Of a stretch of 46,117 nucleotides of DNA, positions 644 through 45,746 are shown in pieces. Under the pieces are notes generated by a model. That model was not told the origin of the DNA and did no database searches. It saw only the letters and a list, made by a program, of their open reading frames with translations. The DNA is from Verrucomicrobiota bacterium. Lineage in GTDB: Bacteria; Verrucomicrobiota; Verrucomicrobiia; Limisphaerales; JAJOIW01. The stretch is taken from NCBI GenBank assembly GCA_021209225.1, contig JAJOIW010000023.1, forward strand, positions 1 through 46,117. Reading direction: 5' to 3'. Every line of letters begins with the position of its first letter. Position 1 is the stretch's first letter. The position numbers were made by a program, and so were the translations under genes.

Positions 644-669
644 GCTTATTTTCCGAGCTTATTTTCCGA
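644..669. repeat. Tandem 13-bp duplication at the rho stop codon
   Basis: The 13-base unit GCTTATTTTCCGA occurs twice back to back (644-656 and 657-669). A shorter related stretch lies just upstream at 631-642. On the minus strand the unit contains the last rho codons and the TAA stop, so the duplication repeats the end of the gene after the stop. Confidence 0.8.
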
Positions 670-2274
670 GGCTGAGGAGGAATTCTATATTATTGCGGGT
701 GCGTTTCAGTTTATTCAGGAGGAGTTCCATGGATTCGACGGCGGGGACACCGGTTAATGCGCGTCTCAGGATGACCACCTTATCATATTCATCTGGATGA
801 TAGAGGAGTTCCTCTTTGCGTGTTCCTGAGTGTTCCACATTGATGGATGGGAAGATACGGCGATCCACCAGAGAGCGATCCAGGTGCACTTCCATATTTC
901 CTGTTCCTTTGAATTCCTCGAATATCACCTCATCCATCCGGGAGCCTGTATCTATCAGTGCGGTGGCAATAATGGTCAGTGATCCGCCTTCTTCGATATT
1001 TCGAGCGGCACCAAAGAATCTTTTTGGTTTATGTAAGGCATTGGCGTCCACACCTCCGGAGAGGATTTTCCCGAGTGAGGTTGAACGGTGTTGTATGCGC
1101 GGGCGAGTCGGGTGATCGAATCCAGAAGGATGATGACATCCTTTTTATGTTCCACCATGCGTTTCGCTTTTTCGATGACCATTTCGGCGACCTGGATGTG
1201 TCTTTCGGGCGGTTCGTCGAACGTCGAGCTGACCACCTCAGCAGGTTTACAGGTGCGCTCCATATCGGTGACTTCCTCGGGTCGTTCGTCGATGAGGAGG
1301 ATAAAGAGATAACAATCCGGGCTGTTTTTAACGATGGAATTAGCCAGGTTCTGCATGAGAACAGTTTTCCCTGTGCGTGGTGGGGCCACAATCAACCCGC
1401 GGGTTCCTTTCCCGATGGGACACACGAGGTCGAGGACTCTCGCTGAAAGATCTCCTGGACCCGTTTCCAACAGAAATCTCTCGTTGGGGAAGAGTGGGGT
1501 GAGGTTGTCAAAATGAGTCTTGTCTTTGGCTTTCTCCGGGTCCTCTTTATCGACGGCCTCAACCTTGAGAAGGGCAAAAAACCGCTCCTTCTCTTTTGGG
1601 GGGCGAATCTGCCCGGCCACCAGGTCCCCAGTTTGCAGATCAAATCGGCGGATCTGCGAGGGGGAGACGTAGACATCCTCCGGACAAGGCAGGTAGTTAA
1701 AGCTTTGTGAGCGGAGAAATCCAAAGCCCTCAGGCAGAATTTCCAGCACACCTTCGGCGAACAAGGTGCCCTTGCGTTCGGCATTTTTCTGAAGGATCGC
1801 AAAGATCACCTCGTGTTTTTTCATGGTGCCGAAGTTCTGGATGCCGAGGTCTTTGGCAATTTCATTGAGCTCAGTGATCCCCATGCTCTGGAGGGCTGAG
1901 ATATTGACAGTGCGGGGATCTCCAAGATCCGTTGGCTCCATTTGCTGCGCCTTCTCGATTTCCTCAGGGTCTTCGGAGGGCAAGGATTGAGCGAGGACAG
2001 GCGAGGCAGCAGGCTCATCCACTTTGGTTTCGTGCTTCGCATCATCGTGGTTCTCAAGTGGCAGCATATCGCTGTCGTCACGTGATTTCCGGGCGGTTTT
2101 TTTGCGTGCAGCTTTCTTTGAAGCAGCTGGTGGGGTGGTGCCCGAAGTGGAATTCGAGAATGCCTTGGATGACTTAAGTGGCAATTCCTCGTCATGGTCC
2201 TCAACAGGAGTTTTTGAGGCAGATTTTTTGGTAACAGTTTTGCGTTTAACTGTCTTAGTCGTAGTTTTCGGCAT
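659..2274 (-). CDS. rho: Transcription termination factor Rho (one-base frameshift)
   Basis: Rho is a hexameric RNA-dependent ATPase that terminates transcription. From the chosen ATG at 2274 (MPKTTTK) the protein has a long Lys/Ser/Glu-rich N-terminal extension (about 120 residues), a Rho N-terminal helical domain ([10 protein letters not shown]), an RNA-binding cold-shock-like domain ([23 protein letters not shown]), then the ATPase core with Walker A (APPRTGKT), Walker B ([15 protein letters not shown]), the Q-loop (GGVDANAL) and the R-loop/C-terminal segment ([12 protein letters not shown]). The frame breaks at the T4 run at 1066-1069 (A4 on the coding strand). One extra A restores [13 protein letters not shown] and gives 538 residues ending LLSLGK. 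Because both halves are fully conserved, I read this as an intact gene with a sequence error. The low-complexity N-terminal extension is common in Rho of Bacteroidota and Verrucomicrobiota. It lies 125 bases downstream of the glyA fusion gene on the same strand. Confidence 0.95.
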
Positions 2275-2399
2275 TTTTAGGTATGGAATGGACGCACGGA
2301 GCAGAGGTTTCACGCCTTGATGGGGGGTACCTTGCTGTCAGTGAGTGGTTGGAACCAGCAGTTCTATGTTTTTATGGGAAACTTATCCCAGAATGTCAA

Positions 2400-4541
2400 T
2401 CAATAAGGTAATGGGAATTTGTATGTCAGGTCGTGGACACGCTTGAGAACCTCCGATTGAACCTGCGCGTTCTTAATATCCGCGAGCACCTCGGAAATCA
2501 TGTCGGCAATGGCAAACATCTCGTGTTCTTTCATGCCGCGGGTTGTCACTGCCGGGGAGCCGATACGGATACCACTGGCCTTGAACGGGGAGAGGGTTTC
2601 GAAAGGGATGGTATTTTTATTGAGGGTGATACCCGCCATATCCAGAGCGATCTGGCAGTCTTTTCCTGTGAGGCCTTTTTGATTCACGTCGACGAGGAGA
2701 AGGTGGTTGTCTGTTCCACCGCTGACCAATCTGAAACCATTTTTCTGAAGACCGCTGGCCAGCGCGGAGGCGTTTTTCCGCACCTGAGCCTGGTATTCGC
2801 GGAAGGAAGTCTGAGCCGCCTCATGAAAGCATACGGCTTTGGCTGCGATCACGTGTTCCAGAGGTCCACCCTGTATTCCCGGGAAAACCTTTGAATCGAT
2901 GGCTTTGGCGTATTCCTTGCGGCAGAGGATCAATCCTCCGCGCGGGCCGCGAAGGGTCTTGTGGGTGGTCGTGGTGACGAAGTCTGCGTGATGGATTGGC
3001 GAGGGATGTTCTCCTGCCGCCACCAGTCCGGCAATGTGGGCAATGTCCGCCAGCAGCAAAGCGCCGATCTCGCGGGCGATCTCTCCCATTCTGGCAAAAT
3101 CAATTTGTCTGGGGTAAGCACTGGCTCCCACTGTGATCATTTTGGGTTTGTGTTCGCGGGCCATTTCCGCAAGCTGGTCGTAATCGATGCGCTCATCATC
3201 CTGGCGCACGCCATAATGAATGACATCGTAAAAGATTCCGGAGAAGTTCGCGGCATTTCCATGGGTGAGGTGACCCCCGTGTGAGAGGTCCATGGTGAGG
3301 ATTTTATCGTTTGGATTGAGGAAGGCGAAATAGACTGCCATGTTGGCGGAGCTTCCCGAATGGGGTTGGACGTTGGCGTGTTCAGCGCCGAATAACGCTT
3401 TGGCTCTTTCGATGGCGAGAGATTCGATTTCATCGATGAATTCGCATCCGCCGTACCATCGTTTTGATGGGTATCCCTCCGCGTATTTATTGGTGAGCAC
3501 GGATCCTTGGACAGCCATGACTGCGGGGCTGGTGAAGTTCTCACTGGCGATCAATTCGATGTGATGTTGCTGGCGAAGACGTTCCTTTTCAATGCTGGTG
3601 GCAATTTCCGGATCGACGGAGGCAACCAGTGTGTCGGCAAATTTATTAATGCGCCTATGGTGCCGGTCTCCCTCGAATTCCGCGGTTAAAAACGTATCCA
3701 CGATCTGGAGTGCGGTTTGAGTATCGGTGAATGCCTGAGCGAGACAAAGGACGTTGGCGTCATTGTGTTGCCGGCAGAGAGCCGCAACCTGGACATTGGT
3801 AACCAGGGCGGCGCGAATTCCTGGCACTTTATTTGCGGCGATACTCATTCCAACGCCGCTGTTGCACACGAGAATGCCCCTCGAAACATCCCGATTCCGG
3901 ATATGGCGGGTCACCACATTGGAAAAATCCGGGTAATCCGTTGATGTGGCATTGTGGGTTCCTGCATCAATCACTTCAAATCCTTTGGACGAAAGATGGG
4001 ATTTGATGGATTCTTTGAGTTGGAATCCGGCGTGATCTGAGCCAATAGCAATTTTGTTGGAAGGGGCTTCCTGCATCGAGAATGAAGATTGAAGTTCGTT
4101 AATTATAGAATGGATTCCCTGGTTTATCTGGTCCCGACAATAGCGGTAAACCTCGAGTGAACCACCAATCGGGTCCAGGATCTCCTTTTCGTCGGATTCC
4201 ACGTTTTTGTCAAACTCTCTGACTAAAAATATTTTTTCCGATGCATCCGGGAAATAATGCTGCATGGCCATGACATGATTCCAGGTCATACCAAAGATGA
4301 GATCCGCCTCCTGCACCATAGATCGGGTGAGGTGGGAACTTCTTTGTGAAGTGATGTCGACGCCGATTTCCCGGGTGGCTTCAACCGCATTGAGCGATGG
4401 GGGTTGGCCATCCAGGGCATCAATACCGGCTGAGCGAACCCGGAATTTCTGACCCAGGCTGGCCATTGCCTTTTTAAAGAGTCCTTCCGCCATGGGACTG
4501 CGGCAGACATTTCCGGTGCACACAAATAAGATGGTCTTCAT
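2400..4541 (-). CDS. glyA: Three-domain fusion: LMW phosphatase - RpiB - serine hydroxymethyltransferase
   Basis: One uninterrupted 713-residue frame carries three enzymes. Residues 1-150 are a low-molecular-weight protein phosphatase with the P-loop CTGNVCRS (nucleophile C8, R14) and the general acid D123 in DPIGG. The P-loop has Val where the arginine phosphatase YwlE has Thr, which favours phosphotyrosine specificity (inference). Residues about 162-298 are ribose-5-phosphate isomerase B: GSDHAGF, base C226, GMSIAANK, and the HNDAN motif at 259-263. Residues about 303-713 are PLP-dependent SHMT, which makes glycine and methylene-tetrahydrofolate from serine: [17 protein letters not shown], and the PLP lysine K528 in TTTTHK. 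In Bacillus ywlE, rpiB (ywlF) and glyA are separate neighbouring genes in that order, so this fusion mirrors known synteny. An internal Met near residue 155 could start RpiB independently, but there is no stop between the domains. Confidence 0.93.
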
Positions 4542-4648: not shown

Positions 4649-5710
4649 TCATCGCTGACGCAGTTGTTTGATGAACCGGATGCCTTTAAGAAAATCAATT
4701 CCACGGGCCAGAATGGGATCGTTTATGGTTTTACTGGTCACTTCACCGGATGCGGTATCTGACGTTTTGAGCAGATCGGCATCGGGACTCAGGTCTCCGG
4801 CGGCTCGGGCATTTTGCTGGTTCTTCAACCGCACCAGATCGGATTCGTTCATCGCTCTCCGCTGGGAATCGGTTTCTGACTCAGAAAAAAATGGGTTGTC
4901 CATGTGGATTTTCTGGATACTGATGGGGGCGTCTATGGCAATATCCGGCTGGATCCCATTTTGGGACAGAATGAATCCATCGGCCATTTTCACCGGGCTG
5001 CGGGCCACTTCAATCGTGCCTCCTCCATCCAGTTCGAATCGTTCAAAATAGAATGTTTGGCCACTGCTTTTCTGGCCGATGACGATGGCTTTTTTGATTT
5101 GTTTGAGGGATGCTGCGGCGAGTTCGGCGGCTCTGGATGTTTCGGTATTGACCAGGACAGCCAGGGGCAGTTGGTTGACGGATTCGGAGGGTTTAGATTG
5201 AAAATCCTCTCCTTTCATCGAGAACAGGGGAGTGGATTCGCCATGGAACAAGCCAATGACCGACGGCACACACTCGTAGCCCTGTCCCTCAGCAAATCGC
5301 AGATCCAGAATAATTCCTTCCAGGGGTTTGAGGTTATTTTGAGAATTTTCTATGGCATTGCGTATTTCAGAATCGGCGCCGGATTCGATTCCGGCGAGCT
5401 GGAGGTAGATGAATGATTCCTCCAAAACCTCAGATTTCCGCAACGAGAGGAGATGGTCCGGTGATTTCTCCGTGTCGGGTTTGGGGTGGACATGAATCAC
5501 CTGGCCATCCAGTTCTTTCAGCAGGCCCCGGACGGCTGCCGCGTCAACGGATTCATGGTCAAATTGATATAAATTCTTCTCCAGCAAATGCAGGAGATTC
5601 TGGAAACGGTTTAACTCAGCGGCTCGCCCACCAGGCAGCATGGCAAGGCAGCCCAGCCCTGCGGCCACGCATAAAACCCGAATGATTCTTGAATTTGTCA
5701 TACACAACAT
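4649..5710 (-). CDS. Exported S41-family (CtpA/Tsp-like) protein lacking the catalytic dyad
   Basis: This 353-residue protein has an N-terminal signal peptide (hydrophobic stretch to about residue 30, GGRAAEL). Its C-terminal half has the S41 protease fold signature: GIILDLR near 133, LAVLVNTETSRAAEL, KAIVIGQKSSG and NGIQPDIAID near 251. In active C-terminal processing proteases the nucleophile Ser lies three residues before a conserved Glu (S-x-x-E) and a Lys follows in FGKG. Here the Ser position is R193 and the Lys position is Q218, so I predict a pseudoprotease. S192 or K214 could substitute only with a shifted register. No PDZ domain is evident; residues 30-130 replace it. ATG at 5710 has a G-rich stretch about 10 bases upstream; ATG at 5701 is an alternative. 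It follows purD by 21 bases, so the two are probably cotranscribed. Confidence 0.75.
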   Translation of the reverse strand: MLCMTNSRIIRVLCVAAGLGCLAMLPGGRAAELNRFQNLLHLLEKNLYQFDHESVDAAAVRGLLKELDGQVIHVHPKPDTEKSPDHLLSLRKSEVLEESFIYLQLAGIESGADSEIRNAIENSQNNLKPLEGIILDLRFAEGQGYECVPSVIGLFHGESTPLFSMKGEDFQSKPSESVNQLPLAVLVNTETSRAAELAAASLKQIKKAIVIGQKSSGQTFYFERFELDGGGTIEVARSPVKMADGFILSQNGIQPDIAIDAPISIQKIHMDNPFFSESETDSQRRAMNESDLVRLKNQQNARAAGDLSPDADLLKTSDTASGEVTSKTINDPILARGIDFLKGIRFIKQLRQR

Positions 5711-5731: not shown

Positions 5732-7046
5732 TCAGGAAATTGAATGATGATACCCGGCAAAAGCCTTGGCTGCAATATCCCGGCGAAAGAATGCCCCTTG
5801 GAAATGGATTTGGTCGACGGCCTGATAGGCGAGATTTCTGGCGGCTTCGAGGGAATGATCGAGAGCGGTGACCCCCAGGACGCGTCCTCCGCTTGTCACG
5901 AGGTTCCCCGAGGAAGTCTCCAGTGCCAGCATGGAAAACTTTAATTCCCGGGATTGCTTCCGCTGCTTCAATTCCGGTGATGGTTCTGCCTTTTTCATAG
6001 GGGCCCGGGTATCCTCCGGAAGCCATCACCACACAGACAGCGGATTTTGTGGACCATTGCAGTTTGTGCTCCCCCAGAGTTCCATCCACGCAGGCCTCCA
6101 TCAGGTCGACCAGGTCATTTTCCAGTCGGGGCAGGTAGATCTGGGTCTCCGGATCCCCAAAGCGGGAATTAAACTCAATCACCTTTGGTCCTGATTTTGT
6201 CAGAATAATTCCCGGGTATATCAGCCCCTTGTACCGGATGCCTTCCAGCCGGCAGCCTTTTATCCATGGGTCCAGAATCGAAGCGGCGGCATCCTGAAAT
6301 GCCTTCTCAGACATGAACGGTGTGGGTGAATAGGTTCCCATGCCTCCAGTATTCGGCCCCAGGTCTCCATCATAGGCAGGTTTGTGGTCCTGTGAGGATG
6401 GGAATGCGAGCCACCGATCCCCATCACACAAGGCATGGATCGACATTTCAAGCCCATCCAGTCTTTCCTGAAGCACCACCCGGTCTCCCGCATCCCCCAG
6501 GGATTTACCCACCATCATGGATTGAATCGCCGATTCAGCCTCAGGCATCGAATGACACACCACCACCCCCTTGCCAAGTGCCAGTCCGTCCGCTTTAACC
6601 GCAACATTTCCATCAAACAGACTGGCAAATCCGATTGCTTCATCCACGGACTGGCACACACGCGATTGAGCCGTCGGAATGCCATGGCGATCCATGAAGT
6701 GTTGGGAAAACCCCTTACTCCACTCGAACCGGGCTGCCGCTTTCGTTGGTCCCCATGCGCGAAAGCCATTGGCCTCGAATGCATCAACCATTCCCGCAGC
6801 CAACGGATCATCCGGGGCAACCACAGTCAAATCCGGCTGAAATTCCATCGCCAACTCCAGCATGCCGGCCACGTCAGTCGCCCTCAACTTCTCACATCGC
6901 ACCGGCACCCCGGATGATTGAACAACTTCTCCAGCCATCCCCCCATTCCCAGGTGCGCAGACGATCTCATGAACGCGTGGCGATCGGGCAATTTTCCAGG
7001 TCAAAGCATGCTCACGCCCGCCACTTCCAATTATCAACACTCTCAT
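5732..7046 (-). CDS. purD: Phosphoribosylamine-glycine ligase (one-base frameshift)
   Basis: GARS joins phosphoribosylamine and glycine with ATP in step 2 of purine synthesis. The protein opens with MRVLIIGSGGREHAL and has the ATP-grasp features VAVKADGLALGKGVVV, LGPNTGGMGTYSP and IEFNSRFGDPETQ. The frame breaks after KVFHAGT. The C-terminal segment LVTSGGRVLGVTA is in another frame. Removing one C from the CC pair at 5920-5921 (G on the coding strand) rejoins the frames with exactly the family spacing between HAGT and LVT, giving 437 residues, normal for PurD. I therefore treat the frameshift as a probable one-base insertion error. It is the first gene of the leftward group purD, S41-like protein, phosphatase/rpiB/glyA fusion, rho. 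SHMT in that group supplies the glycine and one-carbon units that purine synthesis uses. Confidence 0.94.
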
Positions 7047-11991: not shown

Positions 11992-12876
11992 ATGAACAAT
12001 TGGTATCTGAAAGAATGGGCAACGGCCTTGCTGATGTGTGCGGCAATGATGGGCACCCATCCAAAAGCCAGCGCCCAGGACTACGCCCATCCAGACTTTG
12101 ATGGGGCAGGGAAGCTGAAGCCGGAATTTATTAAACAGGGGAAAAAGCTCTATGCCAACCATTGCAGTGGTTGCCACGGAATCAAAGGCGATGGCGAGGG
12201 ACCTGCTGCATATGGACTCTCTCCCAAACCCAGGGATTTTTCCCGGGCTGTTTTCAAATTCAGGTCGACTGATTTTGGCAGTATTCCCACGGATGCTGAC
12301 ATTGAGCGATCCATCCGGGAAGGGATACCAGGCACATCCATGCCCAGTTTCCGACTCTTCGCCGACAATGATATCAAAGCATTGGCTCAATACATCAAAG
12401 TCTTTGATACCACAGGCAAATGGAAGGAGGCCCCCATCAAAGTGGCCTTGGATCCCGAGCCTCAATGGATGCATGACCCGGTGCAATGGAAGACAAAAGC
12501 ATCGGCCGGTAAGGTTACTTTCGACCAGGTATGTGCCGTCTGTCATGGGGCCGGAGGGGCCGGGGATGGTATTGGAGGACAAGCCTTGGTGGATAATTGG
12601 CTTCATCCAGTCAAACCAGCCGACCTCAGAAAACCACATGACATCGGAAGCGGCCCCAGTTTGGAGGATGCCTTCCGTGCCATCACCACCGGCCTCTACG
12701 GCAGCCCAATGGTGGGATATGGGTCCTCATTCGATGCTGAAAAACGCTGGGAACTCGTCGCCTATATCCATTTCCTGCGCCAGTCACACAAAAACCCTGC
12801 TCTGAGTCTTCCTGAAATATCCCAATCCTCATCAACCGAAACCTCTACTAATTCACCCGAGAATGAATTCGAATAA
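11992..12876 (+). CDS. Exported diheme cytochrome c of the cbb3 oxidase cluster
   Basis: A 294-residue protein with an N-terminal signal peptide (hydrophobic ATALLMCAAMMG, cleavage near ASAQ-D at about 29) and two c-type haem sites, C58-S-G-C61-H62 and C181-A-V-C184-H185. Candidate axial Met residues follow each (GTSMPSF, YGSPMVGYG). The stop overlaps the ccoN start by 14 bases, so it belongs to the oxidase operon. In canonical cbb3 oxidases the diheme electron-entry subunit is CcoP, which has an N-terminal membrane anchor. This protein has the two haem domains but seems to have a cleavable signal instead, and it sits before ccoN. I infer it fills the CcoP role or feeds CcoO directly. An uncleaved signal acting as an anchor is possible. 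Confidence 0.85.
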   Translation: MNNWYLKEWATALLMCAAMMGTHPKASAQDYAHPDFDGAGKLKPEFIKQGKKLYANHCSGCHGIKGDGEGPAAYGLSPKPRDFSRAVFKFRSTDFGSIPTDADIERSIREGIPGTSMPSFRLFADNDIKALAQYIKVFDTTGKWKEAPIKVALDPEPQWMHDPVQWKTKASAGKVTFDQVCAVCHGAGGAGDGIGGQALVDNWLHPVKPADLRKPHDIGSGPSLEDAFRAITTGLYGSPMVGYGSSFDAEKRWELVAYIHFLRQSHKNPALSLPEISQSSSTETSTNSPENEFE

Positions 12877-14281
12877 TCCATCCACAGCCAGCAAGTCATT
12901 TCCCATATACGAGGATTTGGTCAAGGCTCACTTCATTGCAGCGATCGTCTATTCCGTCATAGTGGTGCTCACTGGAATGTCCTTTGCGCTTCAGTTTCTC
13001 AGTCTTTATCCCTTTCCTGGAGTGGAATTCCTCTCACCTGGACGGGTTCGCATGACACACACCATGGCGGTTGCTTATGGTTGGTTGGCCAATGGCTTTT
13101 TCGCCATCCTGCACTATGTCATTCCCAAATTGACCGGTAATGCCACATTCTCCAAAAAACTCGGGTGGATTTGCTTTATCGTATTTAATTGCCTGGTTGT
13201 GCTTTCTGAAATACTCATCCTGGCTGGGTATGGTCAGGCAGTGGAGTGGGGGGAGACTCCCGTCATCATGGACCCGCTCATTGCCATAGCGGCCACCTTG
13301 GCCTGCTTCAATTTTCTGGCACCGATCTGGAAGGCGCGGCACAAATCATTTTATGTCTCAGTGTGGTATATCACAGCTGCGCTGGTTTGGGCTCCTCTGG
13401 TCTATGTCATGGGAAATTTCATCCCCCAATACTGGATGCCAGGAAGTGGTGGAGCCGCCATCACATCAATGTACATACATGACCTGGTTGGGCTTTTCGT
13501 CACTCCTCTGGGTGTGGGACTCGTATATTATTTATTGCCAGTCCTGCTCAAAAAACCCGTTTACAGCCACGCTCTATCCTTAACCGGATTCTGGGGACTG
13601 GCATTTTTCTATCCCATGAATGGTGCCCACCACTACCTCCAGAGCCCCATTCCTCTGTGGTCTCAATACGCAGCCATTGTGGCCAGTATAGGTATCCACG
13701 TGGTTGTATACACTGTGATCTTCAATTATTTCGCGACAATGCAGGGCGAGTATAAGCAACTCGTCACTTCCATTCCCGTGAGGTTTATCGCAGTGGGATC
13801 CATTTGTTATCTCCTGACCTGTATTCAATGTGCTATCCAGGTCACCATGAGTGCTCAGGAGATCATTCACTTCACAGATTGGGTTCCAGGCCACGCTCAC
13901 CTTGTCCTTTTCGGGACATTCTCATTCTGGCTATATGCCTGGATCTACTACCTGTGGCCACGCATCTTTAAAACCGAACTCTATTCCCGCACCATGTGTG
14001 AATGGCATTTCTGGTTGGCGGCCATCGGTGTGATTGTCATGTGGCTTGACCTGCTGGCAGCTGGACTCATGCAAGGATTCATGTGGAAAAACCTGGTTCC
14101 TTTCATCAACACTGTCGAGGCCACTAAACCATTCTGGTGGACACGTGCCCTCGCTGGAACCTGCATTCTTGTCAGTGAATTCGTCTTTGTCGTCAATATC
14201 TTCATGACCTGGAAATACAGACGGCAGGCATTCAATGAACAAAAATTGAACGAACCACTCACCCGAACAAAAACCGCCTGA
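12863..14281 (+). CDS. ccoN: cbb3-type cytochrome c oxidase subunit I
   Basis: CcoN is the catalytic, proton-pumping membrane subunit carrying low-spin haem b and the haem b3/CuB centre that reduces oxygen. The 472-residue protein has about 12 hydrophobic segments. It shows the haem-ligand helix HTMAVAYGWLANGFFAILHY, a His pair suited to CuB in NGAHHYLQSPIP, and the helix HFTDWVPGHAHLVLFG, which matches the cbb3 HYTDWTIGHVH region carrying the haem ligands. It has no DxxE-type residues of aa3 oxidases, which supports the C-family. The gene starts inside the end of the diheme cytochrome gene and is followed by ccoO after 40 bases. cbb3 enzymes have high oxygen affinity, so growth at low oxygen is a fair inference. 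Confidence 0.93.
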   Translation: MNSNNPSTASKSFPIYEDLVKAHFIAAIVYSVIVVLTGMSFALQFLSLYPFPGVEFLSPGRVRMTHTMAVAYGWLANGFFAILHYVIPKLTGNATFSKKLGWICFIVFNCLVVLSEILILAGYGQAVEWGETPVIMDPLIAIAATLACFNFLAPIWKARHKSFYVSVWYITAALVWAPLVYVMGNFIPQYWMPGSGGAAITSMYIHDLVGLFVTPLGVGLVYYLLPVLLKKPVYSHALSLTGFWGLAFFYPMNGAHHYLQSPIPLWSQYAAIVASIGIHVVVYTVIFNYFATMQGEYKQLVTSIPVRFIAVGSICYLLTCIQCAIQVTMSAQEIIHFTDWVPGHAHLVLFGTFSFWLYAWIYYLWPRIFKTELYSRTMCEWHFWLAAIGVIVMWLDLLAAGLMQGFMWKNLVPFINTVEATKPFWWTRALAGTCILVSEFVFVVNIFMTWKYRRQAFNEQKLNEPLTRTKTA

Positions 14282-14321
14282 TTTATAACATCCACTCAGA
14301 ATAGAAAGAATTGATTGACTA

Positions 14322-14930
14322 ATGAAATTTTTAGAAAAGTTCAACTTCATCTTCCTGGTGGCGGGACTCGGTTTGCTTGTCACTGCTTTCATCACGCTCG
14401 GACTCATTCCCGCGATGATGACCAAGTCACTCGGAGCTATAGATTATCATCCAACCTCAATCCCTGATGAATTCAAGTCGTATTATGAAAATCTGGAGGA
14501 CTATGAAAAAGCACTCTACCAGGGGCGGGACATCTATATTAAGGAAGCATGCTGGCATTGCCATAGTCAGTATGTCAGACCGGTTGGCAATGAAGCCCTG
14601 CGCTACGGACCCGTCTCCGTGGCATCGGAATACGATAACTCATTGAACCTTCCTCAGCTTTTCGGCACCCGCCGGGTCGGGCCGGATCTCTCCAGAGAAG
14701 GAGGCAAGCGGCCAAACGATTGGCACTTTGTGCACCTCTACAATCCGAAGGATGTTGTGCCGCTTTCCATCATGCCATCCTACAGCTGGTACTTTAACAA
14801 GGACAAGTCTCCCAAGCCCTCCGCCGTGGCTCTCGTCGCATATCTGCAATGGCTCGGCTCACAATTGCCTCAAAATGGCGATACCATTGATCTCAATGCT
14901 TCCACAAATTCCACAGCTGCAAAACTATGA
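14322..14930 (+). CDS. ccoO: cbb3-type cytochrome c oxidase subunit II (monohaem)
   Basis: A 202-residue membrane-anchored cytochrome c. It has one N-terminal membrane helix (FIFLVAGLGLLVTAFITLGLIP, here noted only by its ends F9 to P30), then a periplasmic domain with the haem site C77-W-H-C80-H81 followed by SQYVRP, a hallmark of CcoO. Downstream are the conserved GTRRVGPDLSREGGK and a candidate Met ligand in PLSIMPSYSWYF. It passes electrons from the diheme cytochrome to CcoN. The length is typical. Its TGA overlaps the ATG of the next small membrane gene (ATGA), indicating translational coupling within the oxidase operon. Confidence 0.93.
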   Translation: MKFLEKFNFIFLVAGLGLLVTAFITLGLIPAMMTKSLGAIDYHPTSIPDEFKSYYENLEDYEKALYQGRDIYIKEACWHCHSQYVRPVGNEALRYGPVSVASEYDNSLNLPQLFGTRRVGPDLSREGGKRPNDWHFVHLYNPKDVVPLSIMPSYSWYFNKDKSPKPSAVALVAYLQWLGSQLPQNGDTIDLNASTNSTAAKL

Positions 14931-37241: not shown

Positions 37242-37801
37242 TCGCAGCCATTCAACCCGGAAGTGAGCCGCACTCCCGGATCTCCGTGAAACTGAACAAT
37301 CTCCGCATTAACCGGATGCTGGGCCTGTTGCGCGCTTTTTTTCAAACCTTCCAGACCGATGATCAGTTTCCCCAAAACGCCACTCATCCGGCCATTCGCC
37401 CAATATCCTGGTTTCAGATACGAGCCCCGGAAATCTTCCTCCTTGCCTGAAACTGGTGAATCATTGGCAGGCTCTCTTATTTCTACTCATTGCCGTTCTG
37501 AAATTTCCTTTGACTCAACCTTCCAGCTCCCAGTCAGTTGTATGAATCCCAAGTCCATCCACACCATGGATTCCACTGACCCAGACTGATGGCCGCTCCG
37601 AACCGGCATCAGGACCTGACCAAATATCCCAAAACCCGGAAATCGGCGTTTACTAATAACGTTGGAGTCTAATTTCTGGACAAATCCCTCTCCCAACCAC
37701 AGGTCCCAGCCAATAAAACCGGATATTTTAGGTAAATGGGTCATGCCGAAATCCGACTTTAACCTAGTAAATAAAAGATTCAATTGGGACATGTCGAACA
37801 G
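37242..37801. other. 560-base region upstream of the Pel operon
   Basis: No gene is convincing here. Short frames on the plus strand (to 37589) and a minus-strand frame ending at 37487 that would run into pelA show no recognised family. No c-di-GMP riboswitch core was seen, and no -24/-12 or strong -35/-10 promoter could be named. It must carry the pel promoter unless pelA is read through from the hydrolase gene. It could also hold a decayed gene. Confidence 0.45.
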
Positions 37802-40642
37802 ATGCGAAACATCATAATCAGATTGCTGACCATATCCACATTCCTGGGAAACTTGGGAGCTGAACCATTTTACGTCAATTACAGCAAGGTATTTGATGTT
37901 GAGGAGCTTTCGCGATACAACGTGGCGATCGTCAGTCCAGACGCCGTCTTGTCGGAAGCGGACATTCGCCGTTCCGGCACCAGAATATTCGCCTACCTCA
38001 GTATTGGAGAAGTGGCTTCGGATGCTCCTTACCGACTGGAGGTGGAGAAACTGGGCTTGAACATGCAGGCCAAAAATCAGACATGGGGCTCTGCCATTAT
38101 GGATCCATCTGATCAAAAATGGCGCAAATACCTTGTCGATTCCCTGGCTGTTGCTATCGCATCCAAAGGCTTCTCCGGATTTTTTCTGGACACAGTGGAT
38201 TCATATCAGTTTCTCACTCAAGGTTCGGAGACCCGGAAACAACAATTGGAGGCGGGTGTCGTCGAAATCATTAAAGACTTGAAACGAAATTTTCCTCAAA
38301 TGGACATCCTCCTCAACAGAGGTTTTGACATCTGTCAGCAAGTGACTGAGGAAATCTCAGGCGTGCTGGCTGAAAGCCTCTTTTATACATACAATTTTTC
38401 CACCAAAAAATACGGCCCCACATCAAAATACGACCAGGATTGGCTGTTGGACAAACTCCTGACCATACAGAAATGTGGAACTCCGGTATATATCATTGAT
38501 TATGCTCTCCCGGATCATAGAAATGAAATACAAAATCTCTATGATCAATATGAAAGACACGGTTTCAACTTATGTGTCACAAACGTGGAAATAAATGGAA
38601 TTCTCACTCAACCCAGATCTCTGGAGGCTCGACATGTATTCACCGTTTTTGGAAGTAAATCCTCCAATCCAGCCGAGTCTGTACACTGGCCATCCGATTC
38701 ATTAACTGCCTCCACTATTCAAATGCCCGGCGAATACCTTGGTTTGGAATTTTCTTTCCACAATATCGCTCAGGATGGAATTCCAGAGCCTCTCAACTCA
38801 AATTATAAAGCAGTTATCGTAGACGCCAACCTACAGGTTCCACCAGAACTGGAACAAAACTTTCTCAATTGGCTCCTCCAGGAAAAAAACAAAGGTCGCA
38901 AGATAGTTTTTTGGGGCCAGATTCCATTTTCAAATCCCTCAGTTAAAAGCCTGTTCCTGGATGCTTTCCAGATCCAGGGCACCGGAGAATTCAAATCCAA
39001 TGTGAAAGAAGTAAAATTGCTCGATGCCTCAGAGGATTTTTACTTTGAATCCAAATCCATTCCCGCAGTATACGAATTCATCGACCTTCGAGCACCCATC
39101 GGAAGCACAATCGTTTTATCTTACCTGGGAAAAATGGAGGAAGGATCAAGTATTGAGTTTCATCCAATATTCTATACAGATTGGGGTGCCTTTGCTTACG
39201 TGAATAAATCCATTTTCAAGATTGGTGATGAAATGCACTCATGGTGTATCAACCCATTTCAGTTGATTCAAAATGCCATGAACCTGCCAAATTGGCCTAT
39301 ACCGGACACCACATCCCGCAATGGACTGAGAATACTATATTCACACATTGATGGAGATGGATTTGGAAATCTCTCCGCCGTAACTCCGGGTCATAGATCA
39401 TCTGAAGTCATATTGGACAAAATAATAAACAGATACCCTTACCAGTTTACCAGTTCGATCATTGAAGCAGAAATTCGAGGTCTTATCGAAGGCCAAGATA
39501 AACAGGACATGGACGAACTGATCTCCATAGCAAGAAAAGTATTCAATACAACAAATGTTGAAGCGGCCTCCCACACATTTTCCCACCCATTCTACTGGAA
39601 AAAGGAAGATGGAATCACCGCGGATTATGCTTCTCAGACTCTTCCTTTGAAAACCTCCACCGGTTATACAGAAATAGACCTGTGGAAGGAAATCCACGCT
39701 CCCATCCGGTTTATGGAAGACTTTCTCCTGCCTGAAAACAAGAAAGTTAAAATGATCCTATGGTCAGGCAATTGTATGATTCCAGAGGAGGCCATTCGAA
39801 TGGCCCAATCTCTGGCAATTCAAAATATGAATGGTGGTGAAACGACCATTTCAAGAAGCCACCCATCATTGCTGAAAGTAGCACCAAAATGTCGTGAAAT
39901 CAAAGGTCAACTGCAGATTCATAGTTCTATCCAAAGTGATAACGTCTACCGGCAATTTTATAAAATGAACGGTATTATCCCCACAGCTTATCATTCCGGA
40001 TTTGAAAATGTGCTGCAAACTTTCAGATACACTGAATCACCCAGAAGACTGAAGCCTGTGAATGTTTACTTTCATTGGTTCAGTGGAGACAACTGGGCAT
40101 CACTGAAAGCGGTCGAAACAGTATTGGATTGGTGCCAGAACCGGAATTTGTCGGCCATATCCGCATCACATTATGCTCAGATTATTGAAGATTCAAGAAA
40201 AACAAAAATATATCAACCCAATAGTGACACTTGGATCATCACTAACAATGGAACATGCCGCACTTTCCGACTGGAAACTGGAAGTCAGCTGCCAGACATC
40301 AAGGAATCAGAAAACGTGATTGGATATAACCATGTTAATGGCAAACTATACATTCAGCTGGGAGCACTTCAGAGAACAGTGATAAGACTGGTCTCACGTC
40401 CTGAACAATATCCGTACCTCGAATACTCGACCGGGAATTTTGAATTAATTAAGCGTCAGAAAAATAAAATGATATTCCAGGTCAGCAATCTCACAAAAAA
40501 CAGGATCAAGACATCAGGTTGGGCGCCAGGCATACGAATTACAGTGCAGGTTAATGGAGATGAGTATATTCAAACCACTGATCCCGATGGCTCACTTGAA
40601 ATGACAGTACCAGATCATGCTGAAATCTCCATTCAACAATAA
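37802..40642 (+). CDS. pelA: PelA-like dual glycoside hydrolase / polysaccharide deacetylase
   Basis: PelA trims and deacetylates the Pel polysaccharide (rich in partly acetylated galactosamine) in the periplasm. From ATG 37802 it has 946 residues, matching the 948 of Pseudomonas PelA. It has a signal peptide (cleavage about NLGA-E at 20-21). Residues about 22-260 are the GH114/GH166-type barrel: FAYLSIGEVA, FFLDTVDSYQF (D130), LLNRGFDI and AESLFYTYNF, with E191 aligning to the catalytic Glu of PelA. Residues about 300-500 form the linking domain. From about 507 comes the deacetylase: H515-I-D517-G-D519 and SHTFSH (H591, H595), the metal-binding Asp-His-His set. A C-terminal beta-rich part follows. 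The TTG at 37784 could add six residues but would spoil the signal. pelB begins four bases after its stop. Confidence 0.9.
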   Translation: MRNIIIRLLTISTFLGNLGAEPFYVNYSKVFDVEELSRYNVAIVSPDAVLSEADIRRSGTRIFAYLSIGEVASDAPYRLEVEKLGLNMQAKNQTWGSAIMDPSDQKWRKYLVDSLAVAIASKGFSGFFLDTVDSYQFLTQGSETRKQQLEAGVVEIIKDLKRNFPQMDILLNRGFDICQQVTEEISGVLAESLFYTYNFSTKKYGPTSKYDQDWLLDKLLTIQKCGTPVYIIDYALPDHRNEIQNLYDQYERHGFNLCVTNVEINGILTQPRSLEARHVFTVFGSKSSNPAESVHWPSDSLTASTIQMPGEYLGLEFSFHNIAQDGIPEPLNSNYKAVIVDANLQVPPELEQNFLNWLLQEKNKGRKIVFWGQIPFSNPSVKSLFLDAFQIQGTGEFKSNVKEVKLLDASEDFYFESKSIPAVYEFIDLRAPIGSTIVLSYLGKMEEGSSIEFHPIFYTDWGAFAYVNKSIFKIGDEMHSWCINPFQLIQNAMNLPNWPIPDTTSRNGLRILYSHIDGDGFGNLSAVTPGHRSSEVILDKIINRYPYQFTSSIIEAEIRGLIEGQDKQDMDELISIARKVFNTTNVEAASHTFSHPFYWKKEDGITADYASQTLPLKTSTGYTEIDLWKEIHAPIRFMEDFLLPENKKVKMILWSGNCMIPEEAIRMAQSLAIQNMNGGETTISRSHPSLLKVAPKCREIKGQLQIHSSIQSDNVYRQFYKMNGIIPTAYHSGFENVLQTFRYTESPRRLKPVNVYFHWFSGDNWASLKAVETVLDWCQNRNLSAISASHYAQIIEDSRKTKIYQPNSDTWIITNNGTCRTFRLETGSQLPDIKESENVIGYNHVNGKLYIQLGALQRTVIRLVSRPEQYPYLEYSTGNFELIKRQKNKMIFQVSNLTKNRIKTSGWAPGIRITVQVNGDEYIQTTDPDGSLEMTVPDHAEISIQQ

Positions 40643-40646
40643 ATAT

Positions 40647-42737
40647 ATGAAAGAAACACAGGAAAAATTTCATATTATAAAGCCGGTAAGACTGGTTGGG
40701 CTTATAGCGGCGGTAATCGTATTTCTTTACGTGATAGTACCCTCAAATAAACGCACACTGAACAACGCCCTTGAGGACGGTAACCTGAATGTGGCAGATG
40801 ACGTACTCCATAAAATATCAGAATCTGAGAAACAAAGTGACCCTTTTTACTCTGATAAGGAATTTCAGTTGCTCTTGGCGAAGACATATTCCTCAGTGAA
40901 TGCGAACATCACTGAGGCTGTGCCGACTATCATTGAACAATACAGAAAAAGCAATAAAACTGAGAAAGAAACTATACATACAATCAAGCTGATACGTGCA
41001 GCAGGTCTGCCAGAAAAGGCAGTTCCTATACTGTCTGAATATGAATCTCATTCAGGAAAATCCAACGCTGATCACTCCTCTGAGTTTCTGGAGATCAAAG
41101 TGGTGGTTCTACAGGAAAACAACTTAACATCCTCAGCATTCGATGCGTATCACCAATACTTTAATCAACTCGACACGTTCTCCAAGAATGAGCTTTTCAA
41201 GTTAATCGATCTGGCAAGAGCAGGAAACCGACTCCTGGATGTGGCTGAATTGTCCACAAATAAAATTCTTCTCCAAAATCTTAATAAGGAGGATATAAAC
41301 GATGCGGAAATATATGAAAAACTTGGTAATGTCGCACTGGCAGTGGGGAATAATGATGCAGCCATTAATCACTTCCTGTATTCAATACAATGCGACAACA
41401 CAAAAAATTATCTCCATGCTGAAATTGGAAAAGCCTATGAATGGTCAAACAGACCCGAAACTGCTTTTGAGCACTATATAAAATCTCTCGGGAACAATGA
41501 CAATTACGCTATCGAGCGCTTGTTGGACTTAGCTCAGGGATTGTATAAGACAAAAGATTTAGGACAAGTTCTGGAAAAATTTCCGGATAAAATTCTAAAA
41601 TTGGATAAAGGATTATTTCTTGCCCGTGTTTATATTGAAACAGGTGAACGGCAAAACGCCTACGCATGGTACGAAAAACTCTGCGATTCAGAATCCGCGG
41701 ATGTATCTATTTTTCTGGAATACATAACTATCAGACTTGCCGGTCAGGAATATGAGGAAGCTGTCAGAATAGCAACCAGAGGTCTGGAAAAATTCCCGGA
41801 AGAAATTCATTTCCATGAACTGATTGCTGAAATACTGCTCAACTCACTGCAATATGAAAAAGCTTTCCAGAAATATTACGCGCTCGTTTCCCGTGACCTG
41901 AATCATAATGCCCTCGGTAAAACAATTGACCTTGGAATTGCGCTCGGAAAAGAAAATGATATTACAGATCTCCTGAAAATGCATCGGGCAGCAGGAACAC
42001 TTAAGTCTCCATTTTTATACGAATTGCTGGCCATGAGTGAATTTCGCCATGGCAATTACAAAGCATTCCAGTCCATCATCGAAGAAGGAATAAATCAGAA
42101 CCCATCCAACCATGTCCTCAAGGAAAAACTTATTATCAGTTTCCAGAAACTAGGAAATACCGAGGCTGCTGTAAAGATGATAGAAGATAATCAGAATGAA
42201 TTGTTAAACAACCAGTACATATTGAATTTCTATGTTGATTACCTTCTCAATAATAACAATATTTTAAAAGCTGATAAAATCATCACTGAATTTCCCAGAG
42301 AAGAGAGTAAAAACAATCTGCAGGAGAAATCATTCAAAGATCTCTTCCGGGCCAGAATTGCCACAATTAAGAAAGATTACCCTGAAGCCCTGAGAATATA
42401 CAATGAACTGGAGAGTCAGAATATGCTTCTGGACTATCATTTGATTTCGTTCCTTGAAATTGCCGTGATAGTCAATGACTGGTCACTGGCCAATAAACTA
42501 ATTGATAAAATGTCTGGTATTGACCACGAGGACTATTATGTCCATGCATCCAGGGCTTGCTTATACCAGGGAAACGACACCAGAGCATTAAATTACCTCT
42601 CGCGTGTCACCACTCCAAATAAACTGGCTCACCTATGGAGGGATTTTGGAGATTATTATGAGAATGCTGGAAATAAAAACCAATCAAAATTGGCATACAG
42701 CAAAAGCCTTAAATATTTAGGATTAGAGATTTACTGA
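40647..42737 (+). CDS. pelB: PelB-like N-terminal half: membrane-anchored TPR scaffold
   Basis: A 696-residue protein (ATG 40647, four bases after pelA; 40617 is a less likely overlapping start). A single membrane helix (about 15-35, LVGLIAAVIVFLYVIVP) is followed by roughly 650 residues of helical hairpin repeats. TPR-like motifs include YEKLGNVALAVGNNDAAINHFLYS, AEIGKAYEWSNRPETAFEHY and LRIYNELESQNML (cited by their ends only at 41320-41390, 41415-41475 and 42385-42425). In Pseudomonas a single 1193-residue PelB has an N-terminal helix, 19 TPRs that bind PelA, and a C-terminal outer-membrane barrel. Here the helix and TPRs form a separate protein and the barrel is in the next gene. It is predicted to sit on the periplasmic face of the inner membrane and bridge to the exporter. 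Assignment rests on architecture and operon order; sequence identity is likely low. Confidence 0.75.
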   Translation: MKETQEKFHIIKPVRLVGLIAAVIVFLYVIVPSNKRTLNNALEDGNLNVADDVLHKISESEKQSDPFYSDKEFQLLLAKTYSSVNANITEAVPTIIEQYRKSNKTEKETIHTIKLIRAAGLPEKAVPILSEYESHSGKSNADHSSEFLEIKVVVLQENNLTSSAFDAYHQYFNQLDTFSKNELFKLIDLARAGNRLLDVAELSTNKILLQNLNKEDINDAEIYEKLGNVALAVGNNDAAINHFLYSIQCDNTKNYLHAEIGKAYEWSNRPETAFEHYIKSLGNNDNYAIERLLDLAQGLYKTKDLGQVLEKFPDKILKLDKGLFLARVYIETGERQNAYAWYEKLCDSESADVSIFLEYITIRLAGQEYEEAVRIATRGLEKFPEEIHFHELIAEILLNSLQYEKAFQKYYALVSRDLNHNALGKTIDLGIALGKENDITDLLKMHRAAGTLKSPFLYELLAMSEFRHGNYKAFQSIIEEGINQNPSNHVLKEKLIISFQKLGNTEAAVKMIEDNQNELLNNQYILNFYVDYLLNNNNILKADKIITEFPREESKNNLQEKSFKDLFRARIATIKKDYPEALRIYNELESQNMLLDYHLISFLEIAVIVNDWSLANKLIDKMSGIDHEDYYVHASRACLYQGNDTRALNYLSRVTTPNKLAHLWRDFGDYYENAGNKNQSKLAYSKSLKYLGLEIY

Positions 42738-42759
42738 ACAATTTATTGAATAAACGACA

Positions 42760-44346
42760 ATGAGAACGAGAAGTTTATTAGGAAAACTGGGTTGTGCCAT
42801 TGGTTTGTGTGTCATGGTTGATGGGGTGGCTCAGATTTCCTATGAATCCTACAGCGACCTCGACAGCCTGAGATACGAAATTGGGCAGCAGTTGGAGGCT
42901 GCCCAATCCACTGGTCAGGTCAAAAGTTATGATGATCTGAGCCTCGATACTCTGCGATTATTACTCTATTTGCATGCCAAACTCGGCAATACGGAAAAAG
43001 CCAATGAGGTAAGCGAAGCGGTTTTCAGAAAATCTCCAGATGATAAGCAGGCATTGTTTGCTCTATTGTCCATGAATCTGGAAAGTCAGCAGAAGGATGA
43101 AGTCCTGAGATTGGCCCAAAAACTCAACTCCATGTATCCAGAAGATGGCCAGGTTAAGTACTACCTTGGTCAGGCTTATTACATGAATGGATTTTATAAG
43201 GAGGCCAATTCAATTCTGAGTGAACTTCCAGATTACCAGTTTGAAAATAAACTTTATCCTCAAGAGTTTGACATTGCTGAAAAGGCGTTCATGGGAAGTG
43301 AATGGGCCTATGCTGCCAATATGATATTAAAAGGGTTGGAAGCAGGTGATGGAAGCCTGAGCTTTGACGTGGACTTTGAGCAGAAAGAAAGACTCCAACT
43401 TATTTTTGCCAAAAGACTCGGTCATATCGGGGCGGGTGCTATAGCAAAACTCTTTAACCAGGGCAATGTCTTCGTGACAAAAGCGAATGGGGGACAAGCA
43501 TTGAATGATCGCTATAAAATATATGGAGAGTTTGAGGTTCCCCATATCCAATTGGATGGAACCAGTCTATGGCGTGATTCATCCAGGACATTTGTTCAGG
43601 GGATAATTGGATTGAATTATAATCGAAACAATTGGGATGCGAATTTTCATGCTGGAGCTCATCAGGATGGTGGTATATTCGGTGGCAGTTTCGCAAAAAA
43701 TTTCGACTATGGAAAATCTGTCAGTATCGATGGATTCTATGGCCGGCGGTCCGAGGACACTCTGTTGTTGGAGAGACTGAATGCACGGACGAATGGTGCT
43801 GGAATTTTCGGACAATACTCATTCGATGACAAGTATAAGTCGTATGTCAATGGAAGAATTGAAGGCCGCAACATTGATGTGGACGGTGAAGACTTGTCAA
43901 CAGCTTTTGGTTTATATCTTAATGCTGACCGATTGATCAGCACAAACATCACACAGCTGCGTGGAGGATATCGGGCAAACTACATCACCTATTCCAGCGT
44001 GAATGCCTCCAGTGACGTGATACAGGAAATTGCTTTACCTGGACTGACTCAAACGCAAAGAGGCGAGATATTGTCCAATTCACTGCCGGAGGCGATCCAT
44101 AGACACGGACTGTTCCTGAGTTGGAAAGACTATGTCAACGGTGATTTCAGTTATCATGGTATTGTCGGATACGATTATGACTTTGAACAATCCAGTGGAC
44201 TCTATTATGTCTCCGCCGGATTAGCATACTATATTAACGATAAGTCAAGAATCTCCGCAGATCTGGGTTATTTCAGTGATCCAAGCCTGGGACAGGCAGG
44301 GTCCGATCTTTGGCAGGCACTTGTCTCGTTCCAAATGGGGTTATAA
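42760..44346 (+). CDS. pelB2: PelB-like C-terminal half: outer-membrane barrel with TPRs
   Basis: A 528-residue protein 22 bases after the TPR gene. It has its own signal peptide (LGCAIGLCVMVDGVAQ, cleavage about 25-26). Residues about 45-190 carry TPR repeats (LLLYLHAKLGNTEKANEV, QVKYYLGQAYYMNGFYKEA). Residues about 230-528 show alternating amphipathic strands with many Tyr, Phe and Gly (NRNNWDANFHAGAHQDGG, YFSDPSLGQAGSD), and the last residue pattern VSFQMGL is a typical barrel-end strand. This fits the secretin-like export barrel of PelB (about 880-1193 in Pseudomonas). Summed with the preceding gene the two halves give 1224 residues, close to 1193. The symbol is provisional. No pelC lies between this gene and pelD. 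Confidence 0.75.
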   Translation: MRTRSLLGKLGCAIGLCVMVDGVAQISYESYSDLDSLRYEIGQQLEAAQSTGQVKSYDDLSLDTLRLLLYLHAKLGNTEKANEVSEAVFRKSPDDKQALFALLSMNLESQQKDEVLRLAQKLNSMYPEDGQVKYYLGQAYYMNGFYKEANSILSELPDYQFENKLYPQEFDIAEKAFMGSEWAYAANMILKGLEAGDGSLSFDVDFEQKERLQLIFAKRLGHIGAGAIAKLFNQGNVFVTKANGGQALNDRYKIYGEFEVPHIQLDGTSLWRDSSRTFVQGIIGLNYNRNNWDANFHAGAHQDGGIFGGSFAKNFDYGKSVSIDGFYGRRSEDTLLLERLNARTNGAGIFGQYSFDDKYKSYVNGRIEGRNIDVDGEDLSTAFGLYLNADRLISTNITQLRGGYRANYITYSSVNASSDVIQEIALPGLTQTQRGEILSNSLPEAIHRHGLFLSWKDYVNGDFSYHGIVGYDYDFEQSSGLYYVSAGLAYYINDKSRISADLGYFSDPSLGQAGSDLWQALVSFQMGL

Positions 44347-44379
44347 TACTGGAGTATAAATCAAAAAAACATTTTCACT

Positions 44380-45746
44380 ATGAATAGCAGTCGATCGAGA
44401 AAGTGGTATGAACCCCAGAATGCGTACTGGGATATAGCCGTTATTTTTACAATATTGGCGATCATCAATTTTGTCCTGCGTCCAAAGGATATTGGCATGA
44501 CGCAGATCAATCCATCCCCATATATTCTTCTGCCAGTCCTTATTGGATGTCGATATGGATTTGTCGAAGCCATTAAATCCTGTTTAGTTGTCATTCTCGG
44601 ACATATAATCATTCTGTATGTAACTGAAAAAGCTTCTCTCAGCGATCTTATATACGAACATGGTTTTTTTTTATGCCGGATTGGTTTTTTTTTGGTGGGG
44701 TATGTGGTGAAGTGCACGCATTTTTCATGACTCAGGAAACTGAAATCAAACTCATAAATGACAGACTTGTATCGCGCCATACCTCACTGGAGGAGGTAGT
44801 GTATGAATTAAATCAGATCAAGAAGAAGTTCGAGGAGGAACTGGTTTCTTATGGAAGTGAGACAGCCAGTCTCGACATGGCTCTGCGACGATTGATGGAA
44901 TGCGAAAAAGAGTCCATATACGCTGAGATTTTGAGACTTTTCAACCGGTTTTATGATGTGCAGACAGCGGGCATATACTTGCAGGACAGTTTAAAAACTA
45001 TCAGGAGACAGGCATATATTGGAAGTGATGATGGTTTAACAGAAATAATAAACCTGGATGACGATCTGCTGGCAAGAAAATGCCTTGCAACCAATTGTCC
45101 TGTTTCCATTAAGACATTCAGCGATCTTGATGTGTCACAAATTCATCATCTAGTCGCTTTGCCTGTTTCGACATCATCCAATGAAGCCTCTGGTGTCATC
45201 TTCATAAATGCCATGCCTTTCAACAGGCTCACTGAAGCGAGCGTGGAGGGAATGGAATTGCTGGCTCATTGGGCATCGCGGGCACTTGAGGTCCACCATG
45301 AACGTTGGCTGGTCGAAATGGTGGGTGATCAACGCGTCGATTATAAAGTCATCTCAAATGAAGCATTTTCTGACATCATTCATATAGCCAAACGAACATC
45401 TTCGTCTTACCAGATACCATCATTCATGGTATTACTATATGCCAATGGAGCGGATAAAAACATTGAAGAACAACTCAAAAACAGATTTTTGCCACAAATA
45501 AGGCGCGGAGACTTTGTGACTACCCTGGATCTTCCTTTCAGTAACATAGCCGTGTTATTGCCAGTTGCTGGGAGAAGATCCGTTGAAATATTCCTGGATA
45601 GAATGAACGAAGTGATTTCCTCCAACCCTCAACTTACTGGAAAAATCAGAAACATCACTAAAATTGTAGATGAACATTTTGATCTGATGCAATTCCAATT
45701 GGAAGTCAAAAACATTGGCAACAGGAGAGATAATGCGCTGGTCTAA
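44380..45746 (+). CDS. pelD: PelD-like c-di-GMP receptor (frameshifted)
   Basis: PelD is the inner-membrane c-di-GMP receptor that activates Pel synthesis. The N-terminal 105 residues hold about four hydrophobic segments (DIAVIFTILAIINFVL, YILLPVLIGC, LVVILGHIIILYV, GFFLCRIGFFL). A coiled region follows (TQETEIKLINDRL), then a GAF-type domain (about 165-305; DVQTAGIYLQDS, VALPVST) and a degenerate GGDEF-like domain with the I-site R-R-G-D at 45501-45512. The frame breaks between two nine-T runs (44664-44672 and 44685-44693). One added T rejoins the frames and yields 455 residues, equal to Pseudomonas PelD. The shift is either a read error or reversible slippage. The start at ATG 44380 follows an A/T-rich leader without a clear ribosome site. 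Confidence 0.82.

Follow-up and report, generated by a model that had tools for sequence, protein, structure and literature searches.

The best-studied pseudoproteases are mostly eukaryotic, among them iRhoms, cFLIP and IRBP. The described systems closest to the gene reported here are the bacterial CtpA-type proteases (MEROPS S41A), known from Pseudomonas aeruginosa and Helicobacter pylori. According to two reports, N- and C-terminal dimerisation regions (NDR and CDR) hold CtpA dimers and rings together (PMC11021448, PMC12749690), the catalytic triad of the H. pylori enzyme is S300/K325/Q329 with one subunit at rest in each N-dimer (PMC12749690), and His84 is the proposed acid of P. aeruginosa CtpA (PMC11021448). 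The P. aeruginosa report also gives the PDZ domain, LbcA and NlpI as controls of these envelope proteases (PMC11021448). IRBP (RBP3), an S41 relative, is a four-module retinoid carrier of the vertebrate eye that was acquired from bacteria (PMC10450429), and its modules lost the Ser separately, as seen both in that study and in our profile alignment.

Our analysis concerns a gene that we call psiS41, for pseudo-S41, in a 46,117-nucleotide stretch of a Verrucomicrobiota bacterium (contig JAJOIW010000023.1), referred to below as the window. The gene occupies 4649..5710 on the minus strand and encodes 353 amino acids, as supported by the ORF list, the Pfam S41 match and an AlphaFold2 model. Residues 102-258 match Pfam Peptidase_S41 (PF03572; E=3.5e-19, 69.4 bits against a cut-off of 24), which is the only S41 stretch that Pfam finds in the protein, and ten NCBIfam models are listed at E<=1, none of which reaches its own cut-off (the best, prc, scores 59.5 bits against 218.6). 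In an alignment to H. pylori CtpA (9ku0), which served as the reference for the register, Arg193 (codon 5132..5134) stands in the Ser300 column, Gln218 (5057..5059) in the Lys325 column and Phe222 (5045..5047) in the Gln329 column, and a profile alignment places Gln70 (5501..5503) in the column of P. aeruginosa CtpA His84; all four codons lie on the minus strand, and each position is backed by the corresponding family columns. The Ser-Lys dyad of active S41A proteases is therefore absent from the window protein, which bears out the sequence-only reading in its central claim of an S41 homologue that has lost both residues.

The same loss is seen throughout the order, which we infer to be Limisphaerales (Pedosphaera group, Verrucomicrobia subdivision 3). 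A single-sequence search found psiS41 in at least 112 of 146 genomes, and a search with the family profile arrived at the same count. These genomes yielded 113 aligned rows (G084 is represented twice), one of which, L142 from G120, has a broken frame around the active site, where its letters are meaningless and add one Gly at column 193. The nucleophile column contains Gly in 84 rows, Ala in 15, Glu in 5, Arg in 3, Asp and Gln in 2 each, and Val and Phe in 1 each, with Ser in none of the 113. The Lys column contains Gln in 42 rows, Glu in 18, Arg in 15, His in 7, Gly and Ser in 6 each, and other residues in the rest; Lys itself is retained in three rows, none of which has the Ser. From these counts, the loss of Ser is complete and that of Lys nearly so. 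Arg193 and Gln218 are not conserved among relatives, a question that the sequence-only reading had put forward for checking; as the alignment has it, they are traits of a divergent copy in a family whose usual residue at the nucleophile column is Gly. The His84 column is likewise changed (R in 66 rows, K in 15, Q in 12, and a single His). A shift of register that would bring Ser192 and Lys214 into the catalytic positions was checked and fails, since both columns vary across the 113 rows (column 192: S27 R24 A22 T18; column 214: N21 P20 R17 T13 K12) and their neighbours fix the register, with Thr191 in 111 rows, Glu196 in 111, Gly212 in 112, Thr at column 215 in 109 and Gly217 in 110.

The columns that distinguish the inactive group cluster around the old active site. 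Column 144 is Asp in 104/113 rows and in 18 of 30 inactive rows outside the order, and hydrophobic in 20/20 intact S41; column 140 is Ala in 86/113 rows and Asn in 20/20 intact S41, column 216 is Ala in 93/113 and Phe in 18/20, and column 236 is Ala in 92/113 and Thr in 20/20. The window copy has Ala140, Gly144, Ser216 and Ala236, and so is without the family's Asp144. A hydrophobic N-terminus, recognised by a crude score, is present in 101 of 111 members; in the window protein it covers residues 1-30 (5621..5710, minus strand), where model confidence is low, and its sequence is likely that of a signal peptide.

The window protein alone, used as query against the genome contigs, found no relative, and an alignment (A1) used in the same way found 130, of which the best 80 were kept; 56 of these and the window protein form the 57-sequence alignment A2, from which most relatives with long N-terminal extensions were dropped. 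PF03572 matches all 57 members, and 18 columns are invariant, 7 of them within residues 289-339. A profile search of 288 genomes of the phylum reached, among the matches listed, inactive relatives in other orders and classes. In 9 of 29 other genomes, an S41 gene lies within the 1.5 kb flanks of an anchor gene of the LMWPTP-RpiB-GlyA type; all nine, which come from other classes, have Gly at the nucleophile and Asp at the Lys column, and no syntenic orthologue with intact Ser and Lys was found in the 1.5 kb anchor flanks of the 29 genomes.

A tree of 74 sequences, built without the catalytic-loop columns, separates 54 inactive from 20 intact S41 by one branch (support 100/98). Of its rows, 24 were picked by hand from the 113, and the remaining 50 are each the top profile match of one locus (L245 and L282 are identical, L256 and L258 nearly so), and intact S41 far from CtpA lie outside its sample. 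Because inactive and intact rows split on one branch, a single old loss of the catalytic residues fits best; the rows were picked by likeness to the inactive profile, and one origin therefore holds among the sampled sequences. The tree is unrooted and by itself agrees with either loss or gain; loss is the sensible direction because intact S41 are also known from well beyond the phylum. The window copy forms a long branch (1.8), and a loss private to the window, or an artefact of it, is ruled out by the family rows and the tree. Descent from an IRBP-type S41 is less likely than descent from CtpA, given the lower per-module score and the C-terminus shared with CtpA, a comparison made with no IRBP-type bacterial S41 in the tree. 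The sequence-only observation is correct and understates the case: the window gene is a diverged copy within an old Verrucomicrobiota clade of CtpA relatives that are catalytically dead.

Among the 25 closest pairs of psiS41 genes, dN/dS is 0.08-0.25 in 20; two pairs have no finite dS, three involve L142 (0.31-0.40) and in several dS is above 2. The window gene itself has no close relative for such an estimate, and its single frame matches positions 2 to 352 of the family profile. psiS41 is under purifying selection in these close pairs. The suggestion of an exported pseudoenzyme has thus gained good support from the family-wide catalytic loss, the single clade, the selection seen in close pairs and the hydrophobic N-termini.

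The AlphaFold2 model, built from 57 rows, has a mean pLDDT of 85.8 and a pTM of 0.79; it matches CtpA chains (VIA-align) with Z 23-24 and an rmsd of 5-11 Å over 245-276 residues, residues 28-349 aligning structurally with CtpA 41-435. From the N-terminus, and all on the minus strand, the protein comprises a putative NDR homologue (residues 31-70, 5501..5620; profile match and model helices 29-46 and 52-66) that matches chain residues 13-58 of P. aeruginosa CtpA, a short linker in place of the CtpA PDZ domain (residues 71-97, 5420..5500), the S41 core (residues 98-262, 4925..5419; PF03572 and the CtpA-chain match over the whole model), a NEAELVR-type motif that forms the first part of the CDR (residues 287-296, 4823..4852; conservation and alignment with CtpA EADL) and a C-helix of the DPxLARALDLLKG type (residues 329-350, 4661..4726; conservation, alignment with the CtpA C-helix and model helix 332-352). 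Against P. aeruginosa CtpA, the family profile scores 4.1 bits over the NDR, 115 over the core and 10.4 over the CDR and skips the PDZ domain. Homologues of both dimerisation regions thus appear to be present, by matches that are weak when taken alone (4.1 and 10.4 bits), and the C-terminal EADL and LLKGL motifs of CtpA align with psiS41. Mean column conservation is highest in the NEAELVR-type segment (0.695) and the C-helix (0.681), followed by the core (0.55) and the NDR (0.50).

None of the 57 A2 members, a set from which most long N-terminal extensions were dropped, matches a PDZ model at E<=0.1; all six intact S41 compared do. Outside the order, 7 of 26 inactive relatives still match PDZ_6 at E<=0.01, and the dyad was therefore probably lost before the PDZ domain. 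The earlier statement that the rest of the fold is kept is inexact, because the PDZ domain is absent. By descent psiS41 is a member of S41, yet two features that define an active S41A protease, the dyad and the PDZ domain, are both gone.

Of the 34 genomes of the order first scored without psiS41, seven turn out to have psiS41 at the anchor locus in shortened or cut form, nine show a clean loss, seven have no match in the stretch fetched and 11 fall in no class. Five of the seven shortened or cut forms were read (L306, L307, L310, L311 and L313), the remaining two being L315, a fragment at a contig end, and L371. The five have lost the N-terminal region and the hairpin that once bore the Lys, have Gly in the nucleophile column, and retain the core together with SEADLVR-type and DPVLARALDLLK-type motifs, the latter being the C-helix. 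In the nine clean losses purD and the fusion gene are direct neighbours, and these genomes can thus dispense with psiS41. The CtpA of seven clean-loss genomes stops soon after the LLKA-type part of its C-helix, as read from complete tails in L329, L330 and L337 and from the aligned stretch in L347, L356, L360 and L365.

In the window, psiS41 lies between purD (5735..7046, with frame changes near 5908-5922) upstream and, downstream, a LMWPTP-RpiB-GlyA fusion gene (2400..4541; PF01451, PF02502 and PF00464) followed by rho (665..2313, with frame changes near 1066-1072), all on the minus strand. The single frame changes in purD and rho are probably assembly or sequencing indels in an incomplete genome; the loss in psiS41, on the same contig, is nonetheless family-wide. 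A LMWPTP domain is encoded downstream on the same strand in 70 of the 100 loci (of 113) with room for it, purD lies upstream in 53/100, a count that may be low because the search used a piece of the frame-changed window purD, and rho lies downstream in 58/88. Three loci from other classes (L256, L258 and L260) have purD, psiS41, LMWPTP, RpiB and GlyA in that order. Neighbours were clustered at 99 of the 113 loci, the target ORF not having been picked at the other 14, and upstream clusters that look by eye like PurM (9 loci) and PurF (4 loci) suggest a purine operon. The frequent neighbours are purine and one-carbon genes, rho and one cluster after rho. The purine and one-carbon enzymes are cytosolic and indicate no periplasmic partner, and the linkage thus offers no explanation of an exported protein. 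The cluster that follows rho, in 20 of the 99 loci, is lipoprotein-like (L120 2-859 and similar). The fusion gene, which joins LMWPTP, RpiB and GlyA (serine hydroxymethyltransferase), is one ORF in 73 of the 74 loci of the order that have all three domains, and ORFs of fusion-like or RpiB-GlyA-like length recur across the phylum. Elsewhere in the window, genes at 11992-14930 on the plus strand resemble by eye those for cytochrome c and a cbb3-type oxidase, and we take the gene row at 37784-45746, also on the plus strand, to resemble a Pel-type exopolysaccharide cluster, again by eye.

A lead on a possible partner comes from active CtpA. All 57 genomes of the order that were searched have PF03572 matches, which include, among the matches listed, CtpA-length and longer ORFs, and the CtpA of 20 order genomes keeps the Ser and Lys motifs. 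In genomes with psiS41, the CtpA tail typically reads RDxQLxRAxDLLKG, very like the psiS41 helix RDPxLARALDLLKG. In the first 20 genomes the Asp of this CtpA helix is present in 12/13 with psiS41 and in 1/6 without, the replacement being mostly Glu; the residue was picked after seeing these genomes and then checked in 80 more, where it is present in 59/60 with psiS41 and 2/10 without (Fisher p 4e-8, kinship ignored). Over all 100 rows, the Asp occurs in 71/73 genomes with psiS41 and in 3/16 without, the 16 being nine clean losses and seven genomes with no match in the stretch fetched. In other orders and classes the counts are 11/13 and 3/14, the absence of psiS41 in the 14 f66 genomes being inferred, among the matches listed, from a phylum profile search that scored at most seven candidates for most genomes. 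Exceptions occur both among genomes that have psiS41 and no Asp (G071 with Met and G014 with Glu) and among those scored without psiS41 that have the Asp (G036, G109 and G003).

Two genera show the association internally: in g50, no psiS41 was found in G049, whose CtpA has Glu, and G086 has psiS41 and Asp; in g42, the same holds for G130 (none found, Glu) and for G041, G082 and G108 (psiS41 and Asp). When kinship is counted, the supported branches of quick trees leave 4-5 independent contrasts, of which 2-3 agree with the association and 0-1 run against it (median sign-test p 0.25), one pair test having taken all 16 order negatives and about half of the order positives. The link between psiS41 and CtpA is therefore suggestive and stays a lead only, because the independent contrasts are few, and common descent with inheritance could produce the Asp association. 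No CtpA match at E<=1e-70 was found in 4 of 60 psiS41-bearing genomes, which are 90% (G043), 82% (G027), 66% (G062) and 94% (G122) complete, and the search of the genome to which the window belongs, which is 57.7% complete, turned up no S41 beyond psiS41 and one of the tail-specific type. By eye, the active CtpA gene adjoins an ispD-like gene in L332 and L336, and in L336 a tsaD-like gene as well.

The binding or regulatory role proposed from the sequence alone remains plausible, and the probable retention of the dimerisation regions together with the loss of PDZ now makes it more specific. The explanation that we tentatively prefer, and hold with less than even confidence, is that psiS41 is an exported, non-proteolytic descendant of CtpA that acts as an oligomeric binding or assembly subunit through its C-helix, active CtpA, whose rings the homologous helix builds, being the likeliest partner. 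The sequences show that in this descendant of a CtpA-type C-terminal processing protease the dyad is gone throughout the sampled clade, that PDZ is absent in the window's lineage and that selection keeps the rest. The protein would work without cutting, through the C-helix (residues 329-350) and the NEAELVR-type segment, and may enter or cap the CtpA ring as a permanently resting, PDZ-less subunit, thereby setting the assembly or activity of CtpA. We assign this role to the C-helix because the five shortened forms drop the NDR and the Lys hairpin yet keep the C-helix, and because the C-terminal segments are the most conserved; against CtpA as the partner, a shared C-helix would be expected from common descent alone. 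A stricter form of this explanation, in which psiS41 serves the CtpA ring across several classes as a dedicated, PDZ-less and catalytically dead subunit or as its regulator, paired by the C-helix, and in which its loss goes with a change of the CtpA Asp and, in several genomes, with loss of the distal part of the CtpA C-helix, seems rather unlikely. The main rival, which the analogy with IRBP would make possible and which we consider somewhat doubtful, is that the emptied cleft binds a small hydrophobic molecule or peptide, like the modules of IRBP/RBP3, with CtpA uninvolved. IRBP, known to be an S41 relative that does not cut, gives the best whole-chain profile match (3.8e-40 over four modules); its modules have G, T, S and G where the nucleophile would stand and G, S, G and G in the Lys column, and the new acidic residue beside the old site (Asp144) is conserved. 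CtpA is nevertheless far closer per module (115 bits against at most 39.6 for IRBP), conservation peaks in the C-terminal region rather than in the cleft, the five shortened relatives are without part of the cleft, and the window copy has Gly144.

It is also possible, though we think it unlikely, that psiS41 is a homo-oligomeric scaffold whose partner has nothing to do with CtpA and might be, say, a peptidoglycan enzyme or an adaptor lipoprotein. The homologues of the dimerisation regions would serve such a scaffold, some psiS41-bearing genomes have no CtpA match, and a lipoprotein bound at the NDR is reported to activate P. aeruginosa CtpA (PMC11021448); the frequent neighbours, however, are only purine and one-carbon genes, rho and the one cluster after rho (20 loci), and the NDR is missing from the five short forms. 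An enzyme repurposed to catalyse some new reaction in the former active site could account for the conserved polar cleft residues (Asp144, Thr191, Glu196) and for the match of crotonase-type enzymes to the model at Z 10-11, and is very unlikely: intact proteases also have Ser/Thr and Glu at the equivalents of Thr191 and Glu196, Asp144 is absent from the window copy and five relatives no longer have the Lys hairpin. Still less probable is a decaying relic held by its linkage to purD and the fusion gene, to which the nine clean losses and seven shortened or cut forms would point; the low dN/dS of close pairs, the 18 invariant columns in 57 sequences and the presence in 112/146 order genomes all argue against decay. 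Least probable of all is a protease that still cuts by means of other residues, such as Thr191 or a migrated base. Thr191 is indeed kept in 111/113 rows, but this column, two residues before the nucleophile, is Ser/Thr in 20/20 intact S41 too, no substitute base is conserved and, again, five relatives have deleted the hairpin.

Compared with the CtpA-type proteases of P. aeruginosa and H. pylori, psiS41 shares the S41 core, homologues of both dimerisation regions and export, and differs in its changed Ser, Lys, third-site Gln and His84 columns and in the loss of the PDZ domain. To IRBP/RBP3 it is alike in being derived from S41 and in lacking the dyad, IRBP being known for its carrier function rather than for proteolysis, with a residue other than Ser at the nucleophile column in three of its four modules and a changed Lys column in all four; it differs in having one S41 stretch in the window protein in place of a four-module chain, and its per-module similarity to IRBP is much lower than to CtpA. 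The S41 structures of Bacteroides fragilis, Parabacteroides merdae and the Streptococcus agalactiae nisin-resistance protein share the S41 core (Z 17-18) and presumably also have no usual PDZ domain; the nisin-resistance protein scores 34.9 bits against the family profile, and the three proteins are absent from the tree. A search of mostly open-access literature found no paper on a bacterial S41 pseudoprotease in Verrucomicrobia, which leaves novelty unproven. Our results nonetheless describe an ancient-looking bacterial pseudoprotease, spread over several orders and several classes within a single phylum, in which intact CtpA, dead forms with PDZ, dead forms without it, forms also without the NDR and Lys hairpin, and clean loss are all still visible, so that the use of a non-cutting protease can be asked. 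Should the link to CtpA prove right, control by a dead paralogue would be added to the PDZ domain, LbcA and NlpI as ways of governing these envelope proteases.
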